Of a stretch of 35,516 nt of DNA, positions 1,560 through 33,466 are shown piece by piece. The stretch's first letter is position 1. Each line of letters begins with the position of its first letter. The notes beneath the pieces were generated by a model. The model was given only the letters and a program-made list of their open reading frames with translations, did not search any database and was not told the origin of the DNA. The position numbers and the translations under genes were made by a program. Origin of the DNA: a virus. The DNA lies in the IMG/VR virus record IMGVR_UViG_3300031772_000140, positions 1 through 35,516 of that record; one strand, written 5' to 3'.

Positions 1560-2780
1560 TCAGTAGGGAGTAGCCTCCCCATACATCGGCAAGTTACTGT
1601 AACCCATGCCATAAGCCATGGGCTGAGAGGTCGCGGCCCCCAAAGCATTGGCCGCCGCCGGCAGACCCTTGGCCAGGCCGTAGGCTGAGCCTGCAAGGAT
1701 GCCACCAGTAGCTAATCCACCCAAAAGACTAGGACCTTTGCGGGGCTTGGCACCCTGCACGTCCTCAATCTCGGTCATCTTCTGCCCCTTCCGGGACAGC
1801 TTCCCGCTTGCTGCTGGAGGCCCTCCCACTGCCCCAGGAGCGGCCGGTGCACCACCAGGGGGTACGACGTGACCCGGAGCTGCTGCAACCCGTCCTGGGG
1901 CAGCCTGGGCTGCGGCCGCTACGGGTGGCAGGGGACGGAAGGTGGCCGCCTGTTCGGCGGTCGCCAGCTGCGGTCCGGGCTTGCCTTTGAAAACCTTCCC
2001 TACGCGCCTGCCGGCGGCCGCCACGTCCCGGGCTATCGGCTGGACAAAGCCGCGGTTGACCACGCCCGCAGCCCTACCAACATCATGAGCGATTGGCCGG
2101 ATGAAGTTGGCCATCGGGTTCCAAGCGTCCTTCTCCATCGCATGCTTGGAGAGCCCATGTTGCCGGCGGGTCTCATCGATCGAGGTGCCAGCTTCTAGCA
2201 GCTGACCCGGCTGCTGGTTGGAGTCGATCCCACGCCCCGCGGGTAGTTGGGGCAAGGACTGCTCTTGTGCGTCTGTGACCGCTGGCTCACGTTGGTTGTT
2301 CTCGGTCTGTGCCAGATCATTCAAGGCCGGACGCGCTCCGAACCGGTTGGCGATCGCCCCGGACAAGATCGCCCCCATGTCACCTTCGGCTGCCTGCTTC
2401 TCGATCGGCCGCACACGAGCATAATCTGGCATAGTACTGGATTTGACCCCCATCCGTTTGAGGCGGGCTCGTGTTTGGAACACCTTTTCTCGCCAGGCGT
2501 TATGACTGGCTTTAGTGCCCAGTCGTCCTACTTCAGCACTCGTTAGCTCCGGGTGCACGATGAGCGACTTAAGTACACGGAGACGTCGGCCCGCTTCTTG
2601 GCTGGCTCGTTCGAGTAGCTCCGGACTGAGCGCGGTCTTCTCCATCACCTGGTGAGCCATCAACTTGCTGGCGGTTTTTAAGAACTGGGTGCTGGCATCA
2701 TGTCGTGCCCGATCTCTACCGGCCCTGATGGCATCTTCCAAACCAACTGGAAGAACGCCACGTAGAGATTGAGAACTCAT
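1560..2780 (-). CDS. Gly/Ala/Pro-rich putative virion protein, 406 aa
   Basis: No family is recognised. The N-terminal 120 residues are helical and basic, with two K-T-A motifs (FLKTASK, MEKTALS) of the kind that recur in the head and tail proteins of this phage. The middle is rich in Q, P and charged residues. Two related phrases, FIRPIAHDVGRAAG and FVQPIARDVAAAG, look like a short internal duplication near residues 220-255. An Ala/Pro/Gly-rich linker follows, then a Gly/Ala-rich hydrophobic segment (SLLGGLATGGILAGSAYGLAKGL). The ATG at 2780 overlaps the stop of the tail tube gene as ATGA, which decides the start and points to coupled translation. It is the last gene of the minus-strand block, ahead of the terminator at 1463-1499. 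A minor structural or ejected protein is likely by context. Confidence 0.7.
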   Translation of the reverse strand: MSSQSLRGVLPVGLEDAIRAGRDRARHDASTQFLKTASKLMAHQVMEKTALSPELLERASQEAGRRLRVLKSLIVHPELTSAEVGRLGTKASHNAWREKVFQTRARLKRMGVKSSTMPDYARVRPIEKQAAEGDMGAILSGAIANRFGARPALNDLAQTENNQREPAVTDAQEQSLPQLPAGRGIDSNQQPGQLLEAGTSIDETRRQHGLSKHAMEKDAWNPMANFIRPIAHDVGRAAGVVNRGFVQPIARDVAAAGRRVGKVFKGKPGPQLATAEQAATFRPLPPVAAAAQAAPGRVAAAPGHVVPPGGAPAAPGAVGGPPAASGKLSRKGQKMTEIEDVQGAKPRKGPSLLGGLATGGILAGSAYGLAKGLPAAANALGAATSQPMAYGMGYSNLPMYGEATPY

Positions 2781-3752
2781 GGCGTGAGCACGCCCGCGGT
2801 CGAGCCCGTGATCAGCGAGAGCGCGGAGACGGCCACCGGCACACAGCGCTCGAACTGGATGGCCGCCGACTCCTGGATGATGACGCCCTGGCTGTCGGTT
2901 GCCCACGTGTGGTTCGGCACGTAGCAGGCCTCGAGGTAGACGGCCCCGACCGTGTCCTCGTTGCTGTCGCGCAGGTACAGCAGCATCCCGACCGGCTGGT
3001 TGAAGAGGTCGCTCGCGAGGTTTAGGAACAGGTTCTCGTACCCCGGTGGGATCTTCACATCGTGGGGGTTAGAGATCGAGCCTGCCCCGGCATTTGGGAA
3101 CACCGAGCTGATGACGGTCGGCGGAATCAGATCTTCGTAATAGGCGTAGAGCATGCGCAGGAGCGAAGGCCCGTGGTACATGATGCGGGCGATCGTCAGC
3201 TGCCCGATGGTGCGGCCGCTGATGAAGTACGACCGTTCGCTCCCGATCTCGAAGATGCGGTTGAACTGTCGGTTGTGGGAGAGGTTCAGGTTCTGAATCA
3301 CGCCTATGGGCATGACGATCTGATCTGCTCCCGCTCCTGCGAGCGCCCCGGCAGTCGCTGTGGCCCCACCGACATTGGCGAGCCGCGGCGGCCCGGCAGC
3401 CACCACTACGAACCCGGCCGAGAGGAACTGCAATCAGTTACGCAGGCTGTTTAGACCTGCTCTCCGAGTTTCCTCGGAGTGTCGGACTATATCTTCACCC
3501 CGTAGGGTGTCGGGCGCTCGTGGGGGCAATTATTGATCGCGCTTCTCATGCCCCTAGTCTCTGAACCTTCCGGGATACTCATTGCGCTTCTCCCGGTTTG
3601 GCTGCTGATTCCCACCGCCATAACGCGCTGAGGGTTCCAGCAATTCACCCGATGCACCTGATCAGTTACCCGATCAGGGGGCCAGTTTGACCATCAACCA
3701 TGCCGGCTTGCACGAACCGGTCATAGGGCGACCACTCAGAAAACTTGGCCAT
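2777..3752 (-). CDS. Tail tube protein, 244 aa, split by a group I intron
   Basis: The gene is in two pieces on the minus strand. Exon 1 spans 3752 to 3672 (27 codons, starting MAKFSEWSPYDRF) and exon 2 runs from 3430 to 2777. Removing 3431-3671 joins ATC to CAG in frame and gives GPLI-QFLSAGF. Without splicing, exon 1 stops two codons later at TAA, and exon 2 has TGA just upstream of its first possible start (TTG at 3433). The phrase IGSERSYFISGRTIGQ...ARIMYHGPSLLRMLYAYY resembles tail tube proteins of large myoviruses, and the gene lies just after the sheath gene, the usual order. Tube subunits stack into the hollow channel that carries DNA. The ATG at 3752 has AGAAGGAG upstream. The tube call rests on context and remembered similarity. 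The split is seen directly. Confidence 0.8.
3431..3671 (-). ncRNA. Self-splicing group I intron, 241 nt, no internal ORF
   Basis: Read on the minus strand, the four conserved group I elements appear in order: P (AATTGCTGGAACC, 3645-3633), Q (AATCAGCAGCC, 3610-3600), R (GGTTCAGAGACTA, 3567-3555) and S (AAGATATAGTCC, 3495-3484). GACTA in R pairs with TAGTC in S to form P7. Near the 5' end the intron carries AACTGATCAGG. GATCAGG can pair with exon end CCTGATC as P1, and AACTG with exon 2 start CAGTT as P10. A P9-type hairpin CTCCGAG-GAAA-CTCGGAG follows S. The last intron base is G, as expected. The 5' junction is less certain, because this choice gives C-G where most introns have U-G at the cut. 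Confidence 0.9.
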
Positions 3753-3773
3753 TGATCGACTCCTTCTAGCTAA

Positions 3774-3799
3774 GAAGAAAGGACTACAGCCCTTTCTTC
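3774..3799 (-). terminator. Hairpin before the tail tube gene, followed by TTAGCT
   Basis: GAAGAAAGG and CCTTTCTTC form a perfect 9-bp stem with an 8-base loop. On the minus strand the stem is followed directly by TTAGCT (3773-3768) and then the tube ribosome site AGAAGGAG. This is the minus-strand version of the hairpin-TTAGCT unit. It may terminate part of the sheath transcript or act as an RNA-processing site that gives the tube its own mRNA level. Confidence 0.5.
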
Positions 3800-3805
3800 G
3801 CCTAC

Positions 3806-3940
3806 TCACTTCTTGATGATCAGTCGGCACCAGCGTTTCAGTTCTGCTAGTGTCATTTCCCGTTTCATTTCATTCACCCGCCGGCAACACAACACTACGT
3901 TGCTCCTGCCTGTTGTTTCGGTCACGTCCCTATTTGACAT
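3806..3940 (-). pseudogene. Likely C-terminal remnant of an HNH-type endonuclease, 44 aa
   Basis: A 44-codon open frame begins six bases after the sheath stop. Its core, SNVVLCCRRVNEMKREMT followed by LAELKRWCRLI, resembles the last part of phage HNH/endonuclease-VII-like proteins, where a phrase like NVVLCC..CN..K..MT..EF..WC closes the fold. The upstream histidines and the usual first cysteine pair are missing, and I see no ribosome site, so it is most likely a decayed remnant. It sits directly upstream of the intron-bearing tube gene, which fits a former freestanding homing endonuclease. The family assignment is from memory of motif shape and is tentative. A tiny functional protein, or chance, remains possible. 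Confidence 0.4.
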
Positions 3941-3946
3941 CACACG

Positions 3947-6900
3947 TCAGATTATCAGTGTAAGGCGAATAAAATTCGCCGGGTAGGGGATGTCGAGCGT
4001 GACGTCGACCAGTACGGTGTCAGGCGCGTCCTTGTCCTGGATGATGTTGTTGAGGTCCCCACCGATCAGAACCCCGGCTTCGGTCAGGAACGTGAGCTGG
4101 CCCTGGATGACGGTACTGAGGGTATCCAGGAACCCCTGGGTGATGTTGAACTTGCCAATGAAGTTTCTCAGACCCGCGCGCATGAATTTCGCGACGAAAT
4201 CTACGATCTTCGTAATGCTCAGCTCGCGCGTCTCGATGCTGGTGAGGTCGGTAGTCAGCTGATGCCTGCTGGTGAGCGGGCCGCCAGCCACCTCCTGAAT
4301 GACCCAGTAGGTACCGCCACCAGCACCAACCGCCATCTGCCGCTCACTGAAGCGGTCGTTACTGCCCACCACCCGCGTGAAGCCGGTCATCGGGAAGTTG
4401 GTGAACCCCTGCTGTGGCGGCTGCTGTCCAATCATGCCGGAGATCGCCGCGCACATGTAGAAACCAGGGATGAGTTGCTCGAGGCCCTGGATGGAAGCCC
4501 CACATTGGTCGGGGGCCACCATCACCAGGCGGCGGTCAAGATAGCTGCGTCCGAGGTCGGCGTAGGTTTCGGCGATCTCCTGCTTGCTGGTGATGACAGC
4601 TCCGCGCACCTTGATGTTGAAAGACTCCGAGATCAAGGTGCTCGGCAGGTTGGTCATGGAGTAGAAGCTGTCGTCATTTTCGCCCGGCGCGAACGTCACA
4701 CGCACGGTGATGTTGGTCCCCACGACCGTGGCCACGCTGTAACGCTTGCTGTCACTCGCGATGTCAAGGAACACGCCGTCCGCCACCGTGATCGTCCCCG
4801 AGGGGTCGACGCCGGCAGCCAGAAGCAGCGCAGCCAGATTCGAGAGCTTGGTGTCGAGCTCGTTGGTGACGCCCGTGCTGTCGGCGTCCGTTCCGCTTGC
4901 CACCAGCGTGTCGACCTTGCGCGCGGGCATCACGGGGTTGATGAGCGCAATACGCTCTCCCCGGCTATCGGGCTCACTCATGAAGTTGACGTGGGTCTGC
5001 CACATCTGGTGGATGACCGCCTCCTGCGTGAGAGGAGCGATGCCGTAGACCTCCTCGCTCTCCAGGAACGCGGCCGCCAGGCTGTAGGCCTCGAGCGTGC
5101 CGTAGGGGCTGTCATCGGTAACGGCGTCCACCCCGAGTCCACTGACCGTTACACCTGGGGAGTTGAGGAGCGCGAAGAACAGTCCCAACCCCAGAGGGTT
5201 GTCACTGGTGATCGGCTCCATCGCAGTAGTCAGTTCGGTCGTGCTCTCGAAAGTCAAGAGCGCGGGGTTGGCGGCTGAGGCCGTCACGTCCAGGCGCAAG
5301 GCCTTGTACGTCAGCATCAGGGGGTTGGCCGCCATCGAAACTGGAAGACCACGAGTGTCGCGCAGGATGTCCTGTTTGATCGTGACGTTGCCCGCGAGGT
5401 CCACTACCATGTCCGGACGCGGCCGGCTGGCTGGCAGGCTGCTGGCAATCTTCTTGGCCTGGATGTAGAAGCTGCGCTTCTTGAACGTCAAGAACGCCTG
5501 CTGAGTGTCCAGTCGCAGGTCAGTCGGCACTCCACCTGGAGAGACCTGCACGATCGTCCCGACGTACTCGCCCTCGGCGTAAAGGGCATCGCCCTCCTTG
5601 GGCTTGAACGCCCGGCCATTGATCGTCTGCAGGGCAACGAAGCCGAAGGTAGTGTTAGCCGTCCCACTACCGACCTCAATCTTGGATTCCTCACCGAGCT
5701 TGGTGGAGGCCAGCACCAGCTTGTTGGCAGCGACCGAAGCGAAACCCGCGCCCATGGTCGTGTTGATGGCGGTCGTCAGCTCCGACTGCGTCATCCACTG
5801 GTAGATGTCCGCGATGCCAGTGAAGCCGATGGCGGCAAACGCCGTGCTGGTGACATCCACCCAGATGATCCCGCCAGCATCAGTCGCCCCACCCACCTGA
5901 AAGCTGATGTACGTGCCGGTCGTCGGCTGGCTGACGCCCAGGTTGTTCGAGCGGTAGCAGACCGGCTGTCCGATGGCGGCGTTGATCGCGTTGATGGCCG
6001 CCACGATGTCGGCGGGCGTAGCGAACGTCACGGTGTAGAGCGTGCCGTTGACGTTGAGCTTCAAGTTGTTCGTGCCCGGAGAGCTGTAGGCATTGGTCGG
6101 AATGATTGGGCCGCCATTGAAAGTCACGGTCTGGGGGTCGAAACCATCCACCTGCACGATGAAGGTTTTGCGATGGACGTAGATAGTGGAGGCCGGGAGC
6201 GTGGTGGTGCCGGTCATGCTGGCAGCCGTCGGGTCCAGCCCAAAATCCTCCGACGGGAAGCGAACGAGCGGGCTGCGGGTGTCACCGTTGCCGTCATCCA
6301 CGCCGTACAGGACGTAGCCTTCGCTGCTGGATGTCAGGCCCAGGATGGTGTTGGCCGTGCCGGTCCCCACCATGATGTAGCCCTTCTGGCTCTGAAGCTT
6401 GAGACGGTTGGAGCCACCATCATAGGCGTAGGTGCCATTGAGCACGCTATTGATCTTGTAGAGCAGGGAGTCGCTCATCCCGCCCTGGCCGGCAGTGAAG
6501 CCGATCGTGGTCCAAGCAGTCGAGCCGGTCTCCACCAGGCGAATGTGGTCGCCGGTAGCGGTTCCACCACCGACCTGGAAGCTGATATAGGTGCCTGCGA
6601 CATCAGCGGTACCGTCAACCAGCGAGCGGTAGGCGATGGTCTCACCAAACTGGGTATTGATGGCGGTGATGGCATCAGCGATCGAAGCCGGGGTCGCAAA
6701 CGTGATGGTGACAGGCGCGAGGTTGTTCTTCTGCGCCACCAGCGCGTTGGTTCCGACTGCGCTGTAGGCATTGCCTGGGGTCACGCGCGTGCCCTCGAGC
6801 GCGAACATCTCGCCCGGGAACAGAATCGTCTGCTCGGCCGCGCCCATCTCGGTCGTGACCTTCAGGGTCGTGTTTTTCAACGTGGTCGTGGGGAACGTGA

Positions 6901-7597
6901 TCGTGGTCCCCAGCAGGAACGACATGATGCCGTTACGAAGGAAGGTCTCGTCGCGCTTGACCTCCTTCAGGACGCTGCCGGTGTTGATGAACGCCCTGAT
7001 GCTGTCTTCCTGGATGTCGATCTCTGCAATGTTCCCGCGCGGATCTGGGAATGACAGCTGGTCAGCATAGACCTTGTCCTGCTTGTAGGTCGACAGCCCG
7101 AAGGCCGTGTACCAGGGGGCGAAGCCGAGAGCGGTGTTGGCCGTGCCGTCCAGAATCTGGAGAGTCTGGCCATCACCCTTGGTCGTGCCCTTGAGCAGGA
7201 GATAGATGCTGGCCCCGATTGTGACGGTGTAGGCCGTCCAACCGGAGGGCAACGAGCTCAGAATCTGAGCCTTCACCTGATCCGCAGTCAGATTCACGGA
7301 CGTTGGGTCCGCGAACGTGACTTCCTGGGCCGTACCGCCATTCAGGCTGACCTTCAGCGTCAGGCCATCGAGCCCGACATATGGCTGGGCAAGGCCAGCC
7401 ATCAGCACCGGCGGCATGCTGACAACGGCGTCGGTGTTGGCGACGTTGTTGCCAGAGGCATCCTGCTTGTAGGCCTCTACCAGCTGGAACGCAGGGCCGA
7501 CAATCGCCGGGACCAGTGTTGGCTGCACGATCGTGGGGCTGACCGTGCGGAACTGCTGGATGATGGAAATGCCTGGACGGGGAAGCTCGTTGGCCAT
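3947..7597 (-). CDS. Tail sheath protein with repeated inserted domains, 1216 aa
   Basis: This is the contractile tail sheath subunit. The C-terminal part (about residues 1000-1216) carries the typical sheath layout: LDRRLVMVAPDQ, a GFYMCAAISGMIG helix, a GGTYWVIQEVAGGPLTSRHQLTTD segment, and a final region with FNITQGFLDTL and a polar C-terminus. The N-terminus (PRPGISIIQQFRTVSPT) also suits sheath proteins. At 1216 residues it is about twice the length of T4 gp18. The excess comes from related segments ending in GTANT at residues 151, 413 and 646. Two of these also share NAYS.xGTN (276, 502) and GTYISFQVGG (335, 561). The insert domains are probably on the sheath surface. AGAGGAG precedes the ATG, which directly follows the stop of the gene before it. 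The tube gene lies downstream. Confidence 0.92.
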   Translation of the reverse strand: MANELPRPGISIIQQFRTVSPTIVQPTLVPAIVGPAFQLVEAYKQDASGNNVANTDAVVSMPPVLMAGLAQPYVGLDGLTLKVSLNGGTAQEVTFADPTSVNLTADQVKAQILSSLPSGWTAYTVTIGASIYLLLKGTTKGDGQTLQILDGTANTALGFAPWYTAFGLSTYKQDKVYADQLSFPDPRGNIAEIDIQEDSIRAFINTGSVLKEVKRDETFLRNGIMSFLLGTTITFPTTTLKNTTLKVTTEMGAAEQTILFPGEMFALEGTRVTPGNAYSAVGTNALVAQKNNLAPVTITFATPASIADAITAINTQFGETIAYRSLVDGTADVAGTYISFQVGGGTATGDHIRLVETGSTAWTTIGFTAGQGGMSDSLLYKINSVLNGTYAYDGGSNRLKLQSQKGYIMVGTGTANTILGLTSSSEGYVLYGVDDGNGDTRSPLVRFPSEDFGLDPTAASMTGTTTLPASTIYVHRKTFIVQVDGFDPQTVTFNGGPIIPTNAYSSPGTNNLKLNVNGTLYTVTFATPADIVAAINAINAAIGQPVCYRSNNLGVSQPTTGTYISFQVGGATDAGGIIWVDVTSTAFAAIGFTGIADIYQWMTQSELTTAINTTMGAGFASVAANKLVLASTKLGEESKIEVGSGTANTTFGFVALQTINGRAFKPKEGDALYAEGEYVGTIVQVSPGGVPTDLRLDTQQAFLTFKKRSFYIQAKKIASSLPASRPRPDMVVDLAGNVTIKQDILRDTRGLPVSMAANPLMLTYKALRLDVTASAANPALLTFESTTELTTAMEPITSDNPLGLGLFFALLNSPGVTVSGLGVDAVTDDSPYGTLEAYSLAAAFLESEEVYGIAPLTQEAVIHQMWQTHVNFMSEPDSRGERIALINPVMPARKVDTLVASGTDADSTGVTNELDTKLSNLAALLLAAGVDPSGTITVADGVFLDIASDSKRYSVATVVGTNITVRVTFAPGENDDSFYSMTNLPSTLISESFNIKVRGAVITSKQEIAETYADLGRSYLDRRLVMVAPDQCGASIQGLEQLIPGFYMCAAISGMIGQQPPQQGFTNFPMTGFTRVVGSNDRFSERQMAVGAGGGTYWVIQEVAGGPLTSRHQLTTDLTSIETRELSITKIVDFVAKFMRAGLRNFIGKFNITQGFLDTLSTVIQGQLTFLTEAGVLIGGDLNNIIQDKDAPDTVLVDVTLDIPYPANFIRLTLII

Positions 7598-10346: not shown

Positions 10347-11165
10347 CTAGAGCGCCCAGATCTTGAGGCCTTCCTTCACCTGCTGCCCAAATCCCATCTT
10401 GGGGTGTGGACCAGGCATTGGTGAAGCCCCGGTGCCGGCGGAGGTCTTCAGCTTCTCGGCCGTCATCTTCACGCTGGCCTTCCTCACGCTTGCGGGCGCA
10501 CCCTTGGTGGCCTTCAACGCCTGCTGCACGATCTTGGCCTTCTCCTGGGCTTCGGGCGAGGTGAAGTCGGCCTGGGCCTCCATGTCCGCGGTCTTGGCTC
10601 GATACTGCCTGACTGCGGCCGTCGCACCGGCTACCCCACTACCCCGACCAAAACCCTTGAGGTAGGCACCTTCCGTCCCGAGGTCCGCGTTCTTCTCCCC
10701 CATGCAAGCGGTCTTCCCACAATGGGCACCGGCGATCTTCCGGCGGAGGGAGGCGATCTTCATGGTGGAGTTCTCGATCTGAGCCAGTTGCCTGCCCCAA
10801 CCATCGGCCCACGCGAGTTTCTCTGTCTCGGCCGCGCCGACTTTTGGAAAAGCGCCCTCGGCAGCTTCTCTTGCGTACCGGCCACTAGCCGCATCCCCTA
10901 CGCGCCCGGCTACGGCAGCTTCACCCCTATTGGCTGCTGCGAGCTCATGCGCGGACATGCTTTTAGTCGACCTACGGGCCTTTTCCATAATCTCTCGGAT
11001 CTTCCTTTTCGAACTAGAAGTCCAGCCTGTGGCCTCCTTACTTGTAGCGATCTTGAGCAGGTCGTCGGCCGACATCTGCATGAGCTGGTCTTCAAGCGAG
11101 ATGGCAGCGACCTTCTCCTGCTCGCCGTCGTAGAGGCCCTTCAGGTACGAGTTCAAGGTCTGCAT
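10347..11165 (-). CDS. Basic, Ala-rich virion-type protein with many K-x-A motifs, 272 aa
   Basis: No family is recognised. The chain is helical and basic and carries an unusual number of K-[TIV]-A motifs: EKVAAIS, LLKIATS, MKIASLRRKIAGA, GKTACMG and AKTADME. These recur in most proteins of the head and tail block and may be processing sites (see findings). Ala/Gly-rich segments lie at about residues 75-105 and 165-185. Cysteines in HCGKTACMG (near residues 145-155) have no clear partner. The start codon lies just below the stop of the preceding gene. A minor capsid or ejected protein is a reasonable guess. Confidence 0.65.
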   Translation of the reverse strand: MQTLNSYLKGLYDGEQEKVAAISLEDQLMQMSADDLLKIATSKEATGWTSSSKRKIREIMEKARRSTKSMSAHELAAANRGEAAVAGRVGDAASGRYAREAAEGAFPKVGAAETEKLAWADGWGRQLAQIENSTMKIASLRRKIAGAHCGKTACMGEKNADLGTEGAYLKGFGRGSGVAGATAAVRQYRAKTADMEAQADFTSPEAQEKAKIVQQALKATKGAPASVRKASVKMTAEKLKTSAGTGASPMPGPHPKMGFGQQVKEGLKIWAL

Positions 11166-11172
11166 GGATCAC

Positions 11173-12663
11173 CTATTTCTTTGGGGTCTTGATCTTTTTG
11201 GCAGTCGTATGCGGGAGAATGCCATCAGAGTTCTTCTCCAGCGCACCAGGCGTGTGATCAGTTTCGATTCCGTAGCGGCGGTTCGGAATCAGATTGATCG
11301 CGTCCGCCGCCTTAACGAAAGGGCGGGCACCACAAAGCTGTCGAACGAGATCGACACCGGCGGTCTTCTTCTTTCCCACATGATAGGCGGCCGCACCGAG
11401 GGCGGTAGCCCCTGCGCCGACAAGGTACTTGTTACGGTGTTGGCCAAGATGCAGTCCCACGTGCTCGGCTGCAGTCGGATTTCTACCCGCTGATTCTCGA
11501 ATGAGATCTTTGATAGCCTTTATGGCTATCCCACGTTCCTCACTTGGGAACTTCTTGGTAACAGCTCGCCCCAGTCTGTAAGCGCTATCGAAACTGGCAG
11601 TCTTGCTCTTGCTGGCAGCTACTGCTCCCTCTGCCAGGCCCATGGCATTCTGGTGCTCGGCGTCCTGGGACTCGATCATTTGCCTCTGCTGCTGGGCCTC
11701 AGCCTCTGCGTCCTCTTGATCTCTCATCCCAAGCTCGCCCTGGACGGCCTCAAGCAGCTCCATCAGTTCCTCGTCCTCCATGCCTTCGAGGTCTAGACCC
11801 CCCTGCATGCCCTCCTCTTCCATCTCTCCTGGGACGCCTTCTTGCCCGCCACCCAGCTCCATGCCTGGGGGCATCTCATTGCCCTCTGCCAGCATTGGGG
11901 GGACCTCCCCCTGCTTGGGCATGGCTTCCTGTCCAGGCTGAGGCTGTTCTTGTCCAGGCTGGGGCTGACCTTGCGCGTTTGGGTCCATAGGCTGCCCGGT
12001 CGCGGGGTCGATAGCGGGAGGAGCGGGTGGAGCAGTGGGATCGGACAATGCAAGCTGCTGGAGCTGCTGCCGGTAATCTTGAATGCCCTGGCGCAAGCGC
12101 ATCAGCTCTTCGTTGGCAGCCATCGACTGCGTCTGGGTCTGCTGGAGTTGGCCACCCATTTCCTGCTGGGTCTGCTGGAGCTGCTGGGTCGCCTGGTCAG
12201 CGGTCGCCTGTGCCTGTTGTGCCTGTTGACCAGCCTGTGCGGCGCTGGCTTCTGCCATCTCAGCCCGTTGGCTAGTCTCCTGGAGCTTCTGCTCCATGAA
12301 GGCGGCTTCGTTCTCGGCCTGGACCTGAGACAGCTCCTGGTCCTGGTTCACGCGCGACATAGCGCGCGCATACTGCAGATCTTCGGGGCTGGTGCCCATG
12401 CCCTCGGCATCATGAACCACAGGCATCTGGACCTGGGGGCGAGTACGCTCACGTACGCCCTCATTCATGAGCGTGCCGGGATCAACCTTTCCGTAGTTGC
12501 TGCCATAGCCACCCATGTGCTCGCCTTCAGGCTGGCTCTGGGGGTTGCCGAGATCGGCCTTCTTCCTGATGCTGGCGCGCTTCACGCGGACGAAGTAGGA
12601 GGCAGCCTTCTCCCACGGGATGCTACGATCACCGTACACCGCCCGCTCGAGATTTCTGCTCAT
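11173..12663 (-). CDS. Gln-rich coiled-coil virion protein, 496 aa
   Basis: The product has a modular, low-complexity layout. A basic N-terminus with K-x-A motifs (WEKAASYF, RKKADLG) is followed at about residues 100-205 by a Gln/Ala-rich coiled coil (QAGQQAQQAQATADQATQQLQQTQQ). Next comes a Pro/Gln linker with a repeated QPQPGQE, then a very acidic Met/Glu-rich stretch near residues 260-320 (GEMEEEGMQGG, EDEELMELLEAVQ). The C-terminal third is helical and holds SKTASFD, a Gly/Ala helix (YLVGAGATALGAAAYHVG) and KKKTAGVD. No enzyme motif is present. It resembles long scaffold-like or tape-measure-like chains only in composition, and at under 500 residues it is too short to be the main tape measure of a large tail. 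TAGGAG precedes the ATG. Confidence 0.72.
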   Translation of the reverse strand: MSRNLERAVYGDRSIPWEKAASYFVRVKRASIRKKADLGNPQSQPEGEHMGGYGSNYGKVDPGTLMNEGVRERTRPQVQMPVVHDAEGMGTSPEDLQYARAMSRVNQDQELSQVQAENEAAFMEQKLQETSQRAEMAEASAAQAGQQAQQAQATADQATQQLQQTQQEMGGQLQQTQTQSMAANEELMRLRQGIQDYRQQLQQLALSDPTAPPAPPAIDPATGQPMDPNAQGQPQPGQEQPQPGQEAMPKQGEVPPMLAEGNEMPPGMELGGGQEGVPGEMEEEGMQGGLDLEGMEDEELMELLEAVQGELGMRDQEDAEAEAQQQRQMIESQDAEHQNAMGLAEGAVAASKSKTASFDSAYRLGRAVTKKFPSEERGIAIKAIKDLIRESAGRNPTAAEHVGLHLGQHRNKYLVGAGATALGAAAYHVGKKKTAGVDLVRQLCGARPFVKAADAINLIPNRRYGIETDHTPGALEKNSDGILPHTTAKKIKTPKK

Positions 12664-26855: not shown

Positions 26856-28704
26856 AGTGCCGGCGACGGGGTTGGTAGTCCTCGCCCGTGTCTTTCAACG
26901 GCGCGATGATGTCAGGCCGTGGGTACTTGATCATGGATGCCAAGAAACAGTACAGGATGCTGTGGAAAGTATCATCGGTAGACCCGGGCGAATGATTGTA
27001 GATGGTCATGCGCAGTTGTTTGCTGTACTCGCTGAAGATGTTGAGGATGTCCTGTCCGTAGGGCTCGAAGAAGTCATCCCAATTCGGCAGTGCGATCTGC
27101 TTGCGCACGAGCGCGTTGAATACATCGCTCATGACTTCTGTACGGTGACACATGAAGCGGCGAAGCGTGGGCTGCCAGACGACCTTCCCCTTCTTTTGAT
27201 TGGCGTTGTATTGGAACTTGAGGATCTTCTGTGGACCGAAGGCACGCATGAGATGATCGTTGCGATCGAAGCCGCCACCATAATCGCAGCCACAAAGCTG
27301 GATGTTGTAACGCGATAGGATATTGCAAATACGTTCCAATTGCTTTGGCGGTTCTAGATCTTCGCCCACGAAACGGTGAGACCAAAAGACAGTGAATGCG
27401 CCCGTCCCGAAGTACGTGCCCAGTGAGATGACAGTGTAAGCCTGTTCGCCGCTTCCCCAATCAATACCGGCAAAGATGTCTTGGCTATGTGCAAATTTCG
27501 TAAAGTGTTCGAAGTCTCCGAGTCGGATCTCTTCGCGGCAACAGGCTTTCAATTGCCCACGAGTGATGGGGCGCGTGCCGCTATCGTAACTGCGCCCAAA
27601 GACCTCGTTGTTAAGCTTCTGCCTGGAGTAGCGCTTCTGCTTTTCTAGCAGGCCCCGCCATCCTTCTGGCGTCTTTACTACCCATGGCACCATCAACTGA
27701 CTGATATGATAGCCCTCGAATGTGACCTTAGATTTGTTGTTCTCGGTCACTGGGTTCATGGCTGTCCATGCAGCGTCTGGGTGGTAGACCTCAATCGGCT
27801 GATGGCAACGATCACAGATGAGACCATCGGTACCGATGTTGTCCTCTCCCAGGACATTCCAATGCCAAGACCCCTTGTCCCCGGGTGTCCCATGGTGCTC
27901 ACACGGGACTACCCATTCATTCTGGGTAGAGAAGTTCGCCCAATAGTATTCGATCGTATTGTCCAAGCTCTTAGGCGTGCCAGAATAGTTGAAAATCTTC
28001 CAGTCGCTATGGCTTGCACATTCTTCAATGACGGGAATGTTGTCGACCAGAATGTCTTGGATCTCATCAATGTCGATCAGGTCAGATGGAATACCTCTTA
28101 CTCTATCCGCGGTAAGGTAGGCGTAGCGGAGTCGGATCTGAGAGTAGTTGATGAACTTCTTGTGGAAAACAGCGTTTGTGAGCTTGGTGTTGGTGTATGC
28201 CTGGACGACCGGGCTCATGCTGATAGGATCAGCGAGACGATCGTTAGAGAACACCTTCGTCTGCTCTGACGAGGGACTGACATACAGGCTCTTGAAGTAG
28301 TTAATGAGACAACTGTAGGCCAGCAGCTTGTTACCTAACGTGGTCGATTTTTCAACCTGTCTGCCCGCCAGCAGCAAAGTCTTTCGTTCACTGGTGTCGT
28401 AGATACGACGCAGGTATGGACGCGGACCAAAATTGAAATTGTCGACCGAGCCCTTGTCCGCGATCTTGATTGCGGTCTCCGCGAATTCAGATGGAGCGAC
28501 ATTGTAGATGTAGTCTAGACGAGCTTCGGTCTCCTCCACGTCATCGGGGTCATGATCGATCCCAAAGTCTTGTGGTTCACCTTCATCGTTAAAATCATAG
28601 AACGGCTCGGTGTAAACTTTGCCGTCCACGAGCTGTCGCGCGAGGGAGACCGGCATATCGATCTCAGTTTTTCGAGCACGAACGCGGCGAAGGTCGACTA
28701 GCAA
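26854..28704 (-). CDS. Terminase large subunit, about 616 aa
   Basis: This is the DNA-packaging motor: an ATPase followed by an RNase-H-like nuclease. Walker A is LLLAGRQVEKSTT near residues 111-123 and Walker B is LIDIDEIQD near 209-217. A zinc-like cluster (PCEHH...ICDRC) lies near 267-300. The nuclease acidic residues are in FAGIDWGSG (D415), CGCDYGGG (D474) and STDDTFH (D577/578). Length and order are normal. Glu in GRQVEKST replaces the usual Gly, and I recall this from terminases of other large phages. The start is uncertain. TTG at 28704 lies inside the A-rich block of a divergent promoter, while ATG at 28656 would give a protein 16 residues shorter. The small subunit is not certain nearby. 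Confidence 0.93.
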   Translation of the reverse strand: MLVDLRRVRARKTEIDMPVSLARQLVDGKVYTEPFYDFNDEGEPQDFGIDHDPDDVEETEARLDYIYNVAPSEFAETAIKIADKGSVDNFNFGPRPYLRRIYDTSERKTLLLAGRQVEKSTTLGNKLLAYSCLINYFKSLYVSPSSEQTKVFSNDRLADPISMSPVVQAYTNTKLTNAVFHKKFINYSQIRLRYAYLTADRVRGIPSDLIDIDEIQDILVDNIPVIEECASHSDWKIFNYSGTPKSLDNTIEYYWANFSTQNEWVVPCEHHGTPGDKGSWHWNVLGEDNIGTDGLICDRCHQPIEVYHPDAAWTAMNPVTENNKSKVTFEGYHISQLMVPWVVKTPEGWRGLLEKQKRYSRQKLNNEVFGRSYDSGTRPITRGQLKACCREEIRLGDFEHFTKFAHSQDIFAGIDWGSGEQAYTVISLGTYFGTGAFTVFWSHRFVGEDLEPPKQLERICNILSRYNIQLCGCDYGGGFDRNDHLMRAFGPQKILKFQYNANQKKGKVVWQPTLRRFMCHRTEVMSDVFNALVRKQIALPNWDDFFEPYGQDILNIFSEYSKQLRMTIYNHSPGSTDDTFHSILYCFLASMIKYPRPDIIAPLKDTGEDYQPRRRH

Positions 28705-32539: not shown

Positions 32540-33466
32540 TCATAATTGGCATATCGCATCAATGGGATATCGTTCGACGCCAGCAGTATTGATTGGCTCA
32601 CCTGGTTCAGTGGTACCCCCCGCCGTTGCCCAGCATGCCGGGGAAGCATGGATTGTATAGATGTATCCCATGGGCACCGGGTAGACAAAGGCCACATTGG
32701 GGGCGAAAGCGGCTCTGGTATAATGTGCCCCATCAGTGTTCCACATAGAGATCCTAAACAGGTTGCCAATGTGCGTGGTCAAAATAGTAAATGGAACAAT
32801 GAATGTCACTGCATAGAGCCCAGCCCCCGAACAGGGCACGTCCATGTAAGTGGCACTGCCCGCACCAATGATCCGCGCGCTATTGTTGTACCAAAGTTGG
32901 ACGCGGATAGTATGAGCTCCGGGGGCAGCCGTTCTGAATTGGCATCCGATAATTGATCCTGTAGTCCGGCAATAAAAGACTGCTCCTTCTTTTTGATTAC
33001 CAACCAAATTCGTCAGATTGGTTTGCAGCGCGTTAACAAGGAACACAGGATCTGTAGGCAGAACTCCAGAAGGGCCCGGAGGGCCGGGGGGCCCCGGCGG
33101 GCCGTCAGCTCCTGTTGCACCCGGAGGTCCTGGAGGTCCTGGAGGTCCTGGAGGTCCTGGAGGTCCTGGAGGTCCTGGAGGTCCTGGAGGTCCTGGAGGT
33201 CCTGGAGGTCCTGGAGGTCCTGGGGAACCACTTCCAACCTCTGGTTGCACATGGCTAACTACCGCGCTGGCCACGGCCTCAGATATAACAGTGGCCAATC
33301 CCTCATCCATGAAAAGGTCCCCAATTTTCTGGGACATCTCCATTTTTGTAGTGCCGTCAGGTTGGGGGACTTGTACGGGCGTAGATTTGGTCACTACGCC
33401 TTTCGCCACGGCTCGTGAAAGTAATCGATAGCGAAGAAAATCTGCAAGGGCCTTGATGGAGATCAT
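32540..33466 (-). CDS. Collagen-like tail fibre or fibre tip, 308 aa
   Basis: Residues 1-78 are helical ([46 protein letters not shown]). They are followed by about 18 Gly-X-Y triplets, mostly Gly-Pro-Pro (residues 80-135, with one GATGAD break). The C-terminal 170 residues are strand-rich ([55 protein letters not shown]) and probably form the distal, receptor-facing head. Collagen-like triplets in phage fibres form a trimeric stalk. That is family knowledge, while the adhesin role is inference. The ATG overlaps the spike stop as ATGA. There is no signal peptide. The Gly-Pro-Pro part is encoded by nearly identical 9-base units. Confidence 0.85.
33123..33222. repeat. Nine-base tandem repeat coding for Gly-Pro-Pro
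   Basis: About 11 nearly perfect copies of GGTCCTGGA lie in tandem. In the minus-strand fibre gene they encode Gly-Pro-Pro with the same codons each time, so they look recently expanded. Copy number is expected to vary between isolates. Confidence 0.9.

Follow-up and report, generated by a model that had tools for sequence, protein, structure and literature searches.

The tail tube gene encoded in the window (the whole stretch of viral DNA analysed, 35,516 nt) is split after its 21st codon by a short element that is, with very little room for doubt, a group I intron bounded by the corrected junctions 3690|3689 and 3431|3430. Judged from its sequence, this small RNA almost certainly cuts itself out of the tube-gene message, and splicing of the intron so delimited, combined with spread by homing, is very probably the best explanation of the observations as a whole. 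With the junction so corrected, a different tube protein is predicted, and the case illustrates how annotation of a phage tube gene can miss its start.

The preliminary description of this region had proposed a group I intron, to be checked with the Rfam model, and the check bore it out. RF00028 matched the minus strand at 3705-3462 with 82.1 bits (gathering score 50; E 1.3e-19) over the full model, 1-253, and cmscan of the complete record returned this as its single match and RF00028 as the sole Rfam family. The catalytic core, P3 to P8, fits the family model. In an alignment of four introns, a P7.1-like helix and another hairpin following P9 both covary; additional helices at these two places, P7 to P3 and beyond P9, are a mark of subgroup IA, to which the intron may belong. 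Moreover, the fold energy of the intron stretch was unusually low (z = -3.93), none of 200 shuffles being as low. In agreement with the earlier statement that the intron is ORF-free, the ORF list of the window contains no ORF of at least 60 aa within 3689-3431. Read straight from the start at 3752 on the minus strand, which is preceded by a good ribosome site (AGAAGGAG), the tube gene stops after 28 codons at the TAA at 3668-3666, and a 218-codon open frame (3430-2777) continues. The earlier remark that the tube ORF would lack its start unless the intron is modelled agrees with the ORF list, which holds only a TTG-started ORF of 218 aa.

Table. Features of the tail tube region, in window coordinates.
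Feature	Coordinates	Strand	Details
ORF in tail-sheath position	3947..7597	-	1216 aa, upstream of the tube gene; position as in Salmonella phage Arash
Putative free-standing endonuclease remnant	3806..3946	-	last ~46 codons + stop, right after the stop of the sheath-position ORF; family A profile
Exon 1 of tail tube gene	3690..3752	-	63 nt, 21 codons (MAKFSEWSPYDRFVQAGMVDG), ends in GGU; placed by intron-less relatives
P1 with internal guide	3680..3692	-	exon GGU 3692-3690 pairs with GCC 3682-3680; U.G wobble at the splice site
Group I intron	3431..3689	-	259 nt, ends in omega-G at 3431; RF00028 and covarying structure
P2 hairpin (P1 of the preliminary description)	3657..3678	-	in 6 of 7 pairs both bases vary among the four introns
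In-frame TAA inside the intron	3666..3668	-	closes the reading frame of unspliced mRNA at 28 codons
Exon 2 of tail tube gene	2777..3430	-	217 codons + stop

Related introns were found at exactly the same site in 2 of 100 relative contigs, L015 (257 nt) and L064 (258 nt). A 23-base word from the intron core was found in three IMG/VR contigs, namely these two and L087, a 134-kb record of another virus in which a 261-nt intron (10962-11222), closely related to that of the window, splits a cold-shock-type gene. The joined exons of this gene form what we take, from its motif, to be a cold-shock-domain sequence, and the L087 record gave no match to the tube profile. In the alignment of the four introns, a structure of 59 pairs was kept in 98.7% of 235 cells, and 29 of the 59 pairs changed on both sides, a number that no shuffle out of 500 attained. 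Slid controls, in which partners were moved by one to three columns, left 31-50% of cells paired (at most 49.8%), although the structure had been written from the window sequence, which favours the unslid version on the cells paired and hardly on the double changes. The P3/P7 pseudoknot and the outer helices were kept by compensatory change, with a double change in one of five pairs in both P7 and P3; P4, P5 and P6 were invariant. P10 tracked its own 3′ exon, pairing at five of five positions in the window, L064 and L087 and at four of five in L015, where there is one U-U mismatch. Elsewhere, an intron 22-mer had no match in a collection of genome contigs, and the intron DNA matched 29 records of a phage collection, none covering 80% of the query; these matches are taken as the shared group I core.

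The 5′ splice site had previously been placed at 3672/3671, leaving an intron of 241 bases after codon 27, and it was moved to 3690|3689 by the alignment of 94 distinct rows (the window, two spliced relatives and 91 uninterrupted proteins). Exon 1 ends after codon 21 and not 27, because all the aligned rows run DG|x[FY] without extra residues. A motif scan found [DE]Gx[FY]...AGP at one fixed spacing in 93 rows, and the remaining one, L185, differs by eye only in having CGP. The uninterrupted relatives read ...MVDGQFLSAGF... or nearly so, with no extra residues at the junction, and their alignment replaces the formerly predicted peptide GPLI-QFLSAGF by MVDG-QFLSAGF. Joining 3690|3689 to 3431|3430 thus gives a predicted product MAKFSEWSPYDRFVQAGMVDG-QFLSAGF... 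of 238 aa.

The RNA pairings agree with this placement. A U.G wobble at the splice site is a textbook feature of group I introns, and it was found here together with a terminal G and with P1 and P10 formed from one guide. P1 holds only three exon pairs, which are identical in all four introns, and P10 joins the guide AACUG (3687-3683) to CAGUU of exon 2 at five of five positions. Each of the three tube introns comes after the glycine codon GGT, which the U.G pair requires and which 18 of the 91 other rows have. P1 and P10 pairing had originally been cited in support of both intron ends; the 3′ end (3431|3430) was kept, the 5′ end was not, and the strong hairpin then named P1 is P2, as which it covaries in the relatives. 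That the original junction is nevertheless right, so that the tube protein would be six residues longer and the strong hairpin would be P1, is highly improbable. It is in frame, as had been claimed, but so is the corrected one, both 3672|3430 and 3690|3430 restoring the reading frame; its hairpin is stable, and its P1 would hold seven Watson-Crick pairs. However, it inserts QTGPLI, a string seen in none of the 94 distinct rows, ends the exon in a C paired to G in place of the U.G, and lets only two of six P10 positions pair; the GGU|C site in L087, for its part, yields the cold-shock protein. The site at 3672|3671 was rejected for the missing string, the poor P10 and the C-G pair.

Group I introns are in general excised in two splicing steps. 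At the corrected site, guanosine would attack after the U of GGU (3690), held by P1 as the U.G pair, and the freed exon 1 would then attack after omega-G (3431) while P10 aligns exon 2, so that the ligated exons would read ...MVDG-QFLSAGF.... The pairings for splicing are present, and catalysis itself is predicted from them.

The identification of the interrupted gene as a tail tube gene, already proposed in the preliminary description, was upheld by a structural model and by gene order. The AF2 model of the closest relative, L020 (79 rows), reached pLDDT 73.7 and pTM 0.70, and almost every one of the Foldseek matches listed for it in the PDB at E <= 0.001 was a tube of a tail or of a contractile injection system, a tube-like neck or baseplate protein, or Hcp; Z in VIA-align was up to 8.2, a middling value by the tool's own warning. 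Matches of the same model in BFVD included many named tail tube proteins. Since terminator and baseplate proteins share this tube-like fold, the designation of a major tube also leans on the position after the sheath-position ORF, from which the tube gene is separated by a gap of 194 nt. That ORF had no Pfam or PHROG match. The gene preceding the tube homologue in Salmonella phage Arash, in turn, matched the PHROG tail sheath (E 6.8e-10), and the ORF upstream in L015 gave a sub-threshold match to Phage_sheath_1 (E 0.0011). On these grounds the gene product is accepted as a predicted tail tube.

Sequence searches gave little for the tube protein itself. Exon 2 and L002 had no PHROG match, exon 2 matched no tube family in Pfam, a profile of 49 relatives found nothing among PDB sequences, and the tube-region DNA had no match in 50,697 phage records. 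A Pfam scan of 79 tube relatives returned no tube family; its best match, Replitron_C (E 0.00042, in 30 of the 79), and the other weak ones belong to unrelated families and were read as chance. Only four relatives are named phages, Arash and three Vibrio phages (~30% identity). One of the contigs, L019 (Vibrio phage D69), carries two tube-like paralogues, at 5725-6372 and at record position 164763. In L064, two ORFs between sheath and tube (881-2944) resemble a sheath beta-sandwich domain at scores below threshold, which would fit a duplication of sheath domains, and L015 2565-3290 looks similar by eye. A hairpin-like stretch (AAAGGGCTGTAGTCCTTTC) lies at 3790-3760 on the minus strand of the window, just ahead of the tube ribosome site, and L005, L006 and L007 have GAGGG...CCCTC-like hairpins followed by TTTAGC at the same place; it is possibly a terminator or processing site.

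The relatives comprise 65 viral contigs from a first search and 35 from a wider one (best 80 of 207 relatives), making 101 with the window. Among them the intron is patchy at the tube site. On a maximum-likelihood tree of the 94 proteins, well-supported branches force three separate changes for the three rows with an intron, and L020, the nearest row to the window (93% aa), has no intron. A whole-record Rfam scan of 50 records out of 71 first listed found RF00028 in only five: L015, L064, L087 and two, L188 and L191, with an intron elsewhere. In L188 and L191 the tube genes are uninterrupted, the sequence beside the introns resembles thyX by motif, and an HNH-type frame adjoins the L191 intron. 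Multiple matches were also seen in other contigs: L097, L100 and L107 have three RF00028 matches each, and L089 has six within 2.2 kb (3637-5845), followed by an ORF that PHROG links weakly to a major head protein (E 0.00021), so that its capsid gene may be split many times.

The gap between the sheath-position and tube genes also houses endonuclease genes. In L015, an intact gene of a family here called HEG family A (3295-4008, 237 aa; PHROG 1035, 'endonuclease VII', E 1.3e-31) overlaps the tube start, and relatives of it immediately precede the tube gene in the intron-less L026, L030, L031 and L033. The window retains a fragment reading ...SNVVLCCRRVNEMKREMTLAELKRWCRLIIKK that matches positions 197-229 of the 236 in the family A profile, with E 4.7e-9, although the window was no part of that profile, and E 1.6e-9 in another search; Pfam scans of 29 window ORFs found no endonuclease, and HNH_3 had no match in the window. 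An apparent internally deleted family A copy without intron was found in L049, which is near L015 on the tree, and the intron-bearing L064 has no trace of either nuclease in the flank available. A second endonuclease family, B (HNH_3), uses the same gap. Altogether, 21 of 101 contigs had family A or B no more than 1.5 kb upstream of the tube gene (A in 10, B in 12, both in L033; one upstream stretch measured 884 bases), and none had either within 1.5 kb downstream, where some stretches were shorter than that, the shortest 398 bases. In 48 whole records, the five strong family A matches were all directly upstream of the tube gene, and three weaker ones (E 1e-14 to 1e-17) lay elsewhere. The sheath-tube gap is a nuclease hotspot, as is expected of homing endonucleases that cut a neighbouring gene.

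These observations point to collaborative homing, in which an intron lacking its own endonuclease, as this one does, is spread by a free-standing one. The nuclease beside the tube gene would cut intron-less tube DNA during co-infection, repair by homologous recombination would copy both nuclease and intron, and once the intron was fixed the nuclease would decay, as it appears to have done in the window. That homing followed by nuclease decay brought the intron to the tube site is a reading to which we give nearly even prospects. More tentatively, the states found among the relatives may follow one another in a single cycle: L015 has the intron and an intact nuclease, the window the intron and a remnant, and L064 the intron alone; L026, L030, L031 and L033 have only the nuclease, L049 only a remnant, and L020 an empty site. 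Two of three intron-bearing contigs had family A, against 8 of 98 without an intron (Fisher p 0.025, with no correction for relatedness). Intron and nuclease are nevertheless not tightly linked, given the intron alone in L064 and family A in those eight intron-less contigs. The site sequences of nuclease-bearing intron-less phages gave no clear pattern of target immunity, and the sheath gene is an equally possible target of the nuclease.

It is unlikely, though to be weighed, that the intron is immobile, having been inherited from a distant common ancestor and lost precisely in nearly all lineages, with the neighbouring endonuclease uninvolved. One insertion site serves all three tube introns, and one gain with many losses is on the tree as acceptable as three gains. 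Such a history, however, demands many exact losses, one of them since the split from L020. Moreover, the tube introns are pairwise 78.3-80.5% alike against 65.2-71.2% nt for the exon DNA of the same pairs, although structured RNA is also more constrained and this could lie behind part of the higher likeness. The window intron is also nearer to the cold-shock intron of L087 (75.3%) than are those of L015 (68.9%) and L064 (69.8%).

Spread by reverse splicing into RNA, with the neighbouring endonuclease a coincidence, is rather improbable. The occurrence of one intron family in two unrelated genes, of tube and cold-shock type, with GGU before both sites, speaks for it, as does the variation of P10 with the 3′ exon. 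Reverse splicing has been proposed for ectopic intron moves, and a passage of PMC3984707 describes direct experimental evidence as missing. It would, however, require reverse transcription of phage RNA and leave the endonuclease hotspot unexplained. The two routes may also be combined, with the intron first entering a gene by reverse splicing and spreading afterwards by homing.

Collaborative homing has a known counterpart in cyanophage S-PM2, where an ORF-less psbA intron and the free-standing endonuclease F-CphI lie side by side, the endonuclease being next to the host gene of the intron (PMC6083498, PMC3984707); F-CphI cuts the intron-less gene and is blocked by the intron, as reported in PMC6083498. 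In the window group, too, a group I intron lacking an ORF can have a putative free-standing endonuclease gene beside its host gene, intact in L015 and reduced to a remnant in the window, and homing is proposed from sequence comparison. The two enzymes differ by motif: family A has DRVD where the F-CphI family has DHDH, and throughout the family DR (DRV, DRI or DRL) stands where the DHDH motif has its first His, a residue that a section of PMC6083498 gives as conserved in all DHHRN members. With this His missing, family A is by motif no member of the DHHRN (F-CphI) family, although PHROG 1035 'endonuclease VII' matches it.

Tail tube genes with introns are also on record. Group I introns are reported in the orf142 tail tube gene of Twort (PMC11878797) and ORF-less ones in the tail tube gene of Staphylococcus phage 812, from whose variant 812a mutants lacking both introns and the adjoining nuclease were derived, as described in PMC6445280. 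The phage 812 tube CDS contains two RF00028 matches and is followed immediately by a nuclease gene. In phage 812 and the other kayviruses, in Twort and in the window alike, a myovirus tube gene placed right behind the sheath gene holds group I introns that lack an inner ORF, and phage 812 and the relatives of the window share an adjoining nuclease gene. In contrast, the phages are unrelated, the model matches in phage 812 start ~345 bases into the CDS (L196 6475 and 6816) and the insertion in the window follows 63 nt, and the nuclease is downstream of the tube gene in phage 812 and upstream in the window group. In Cluster J mycobacteriophages, too, introns are reported to interrupt virion structural genes, those of capsid and tail, and to occur patchily in closely related phages (PMC3706429); unlike the window virus, these are siphoviruses with introns in other genes, and the capsid intron holds its own endonuclease.

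Tube-gene introns are therefore already known in Herelleviridae, and what is new is another insertion site in an unrelated phage group and, at the sheath-tube nuclease hotspot, a series of intermediate states that is unusually clear. PMC11878797 asks, in one passage, why only genes of nucleotide and DNA metabolism are colonised by introns; here, the tube genes of two unrelated phage groups, that of the window and the kayviruses, have been invaded by small introns beside nuclease genes. Moreover, the states found among the relatives (nuclease or intron by itself, both together, or neither) offer a way to test how mobile introns arise.

Elsewhere in the window, nearly all other ORFs (29 scanned in total) had nothing in Pfam. 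A large terminase is encoded on the minus strand at 26857-28704 (GpA_ATPase, E 3.7e-7), and a 308-aa ORF on the same strand at 32543-33466 carries a collagen-like repeat (Pfam PF01391, E 1.5e-9).
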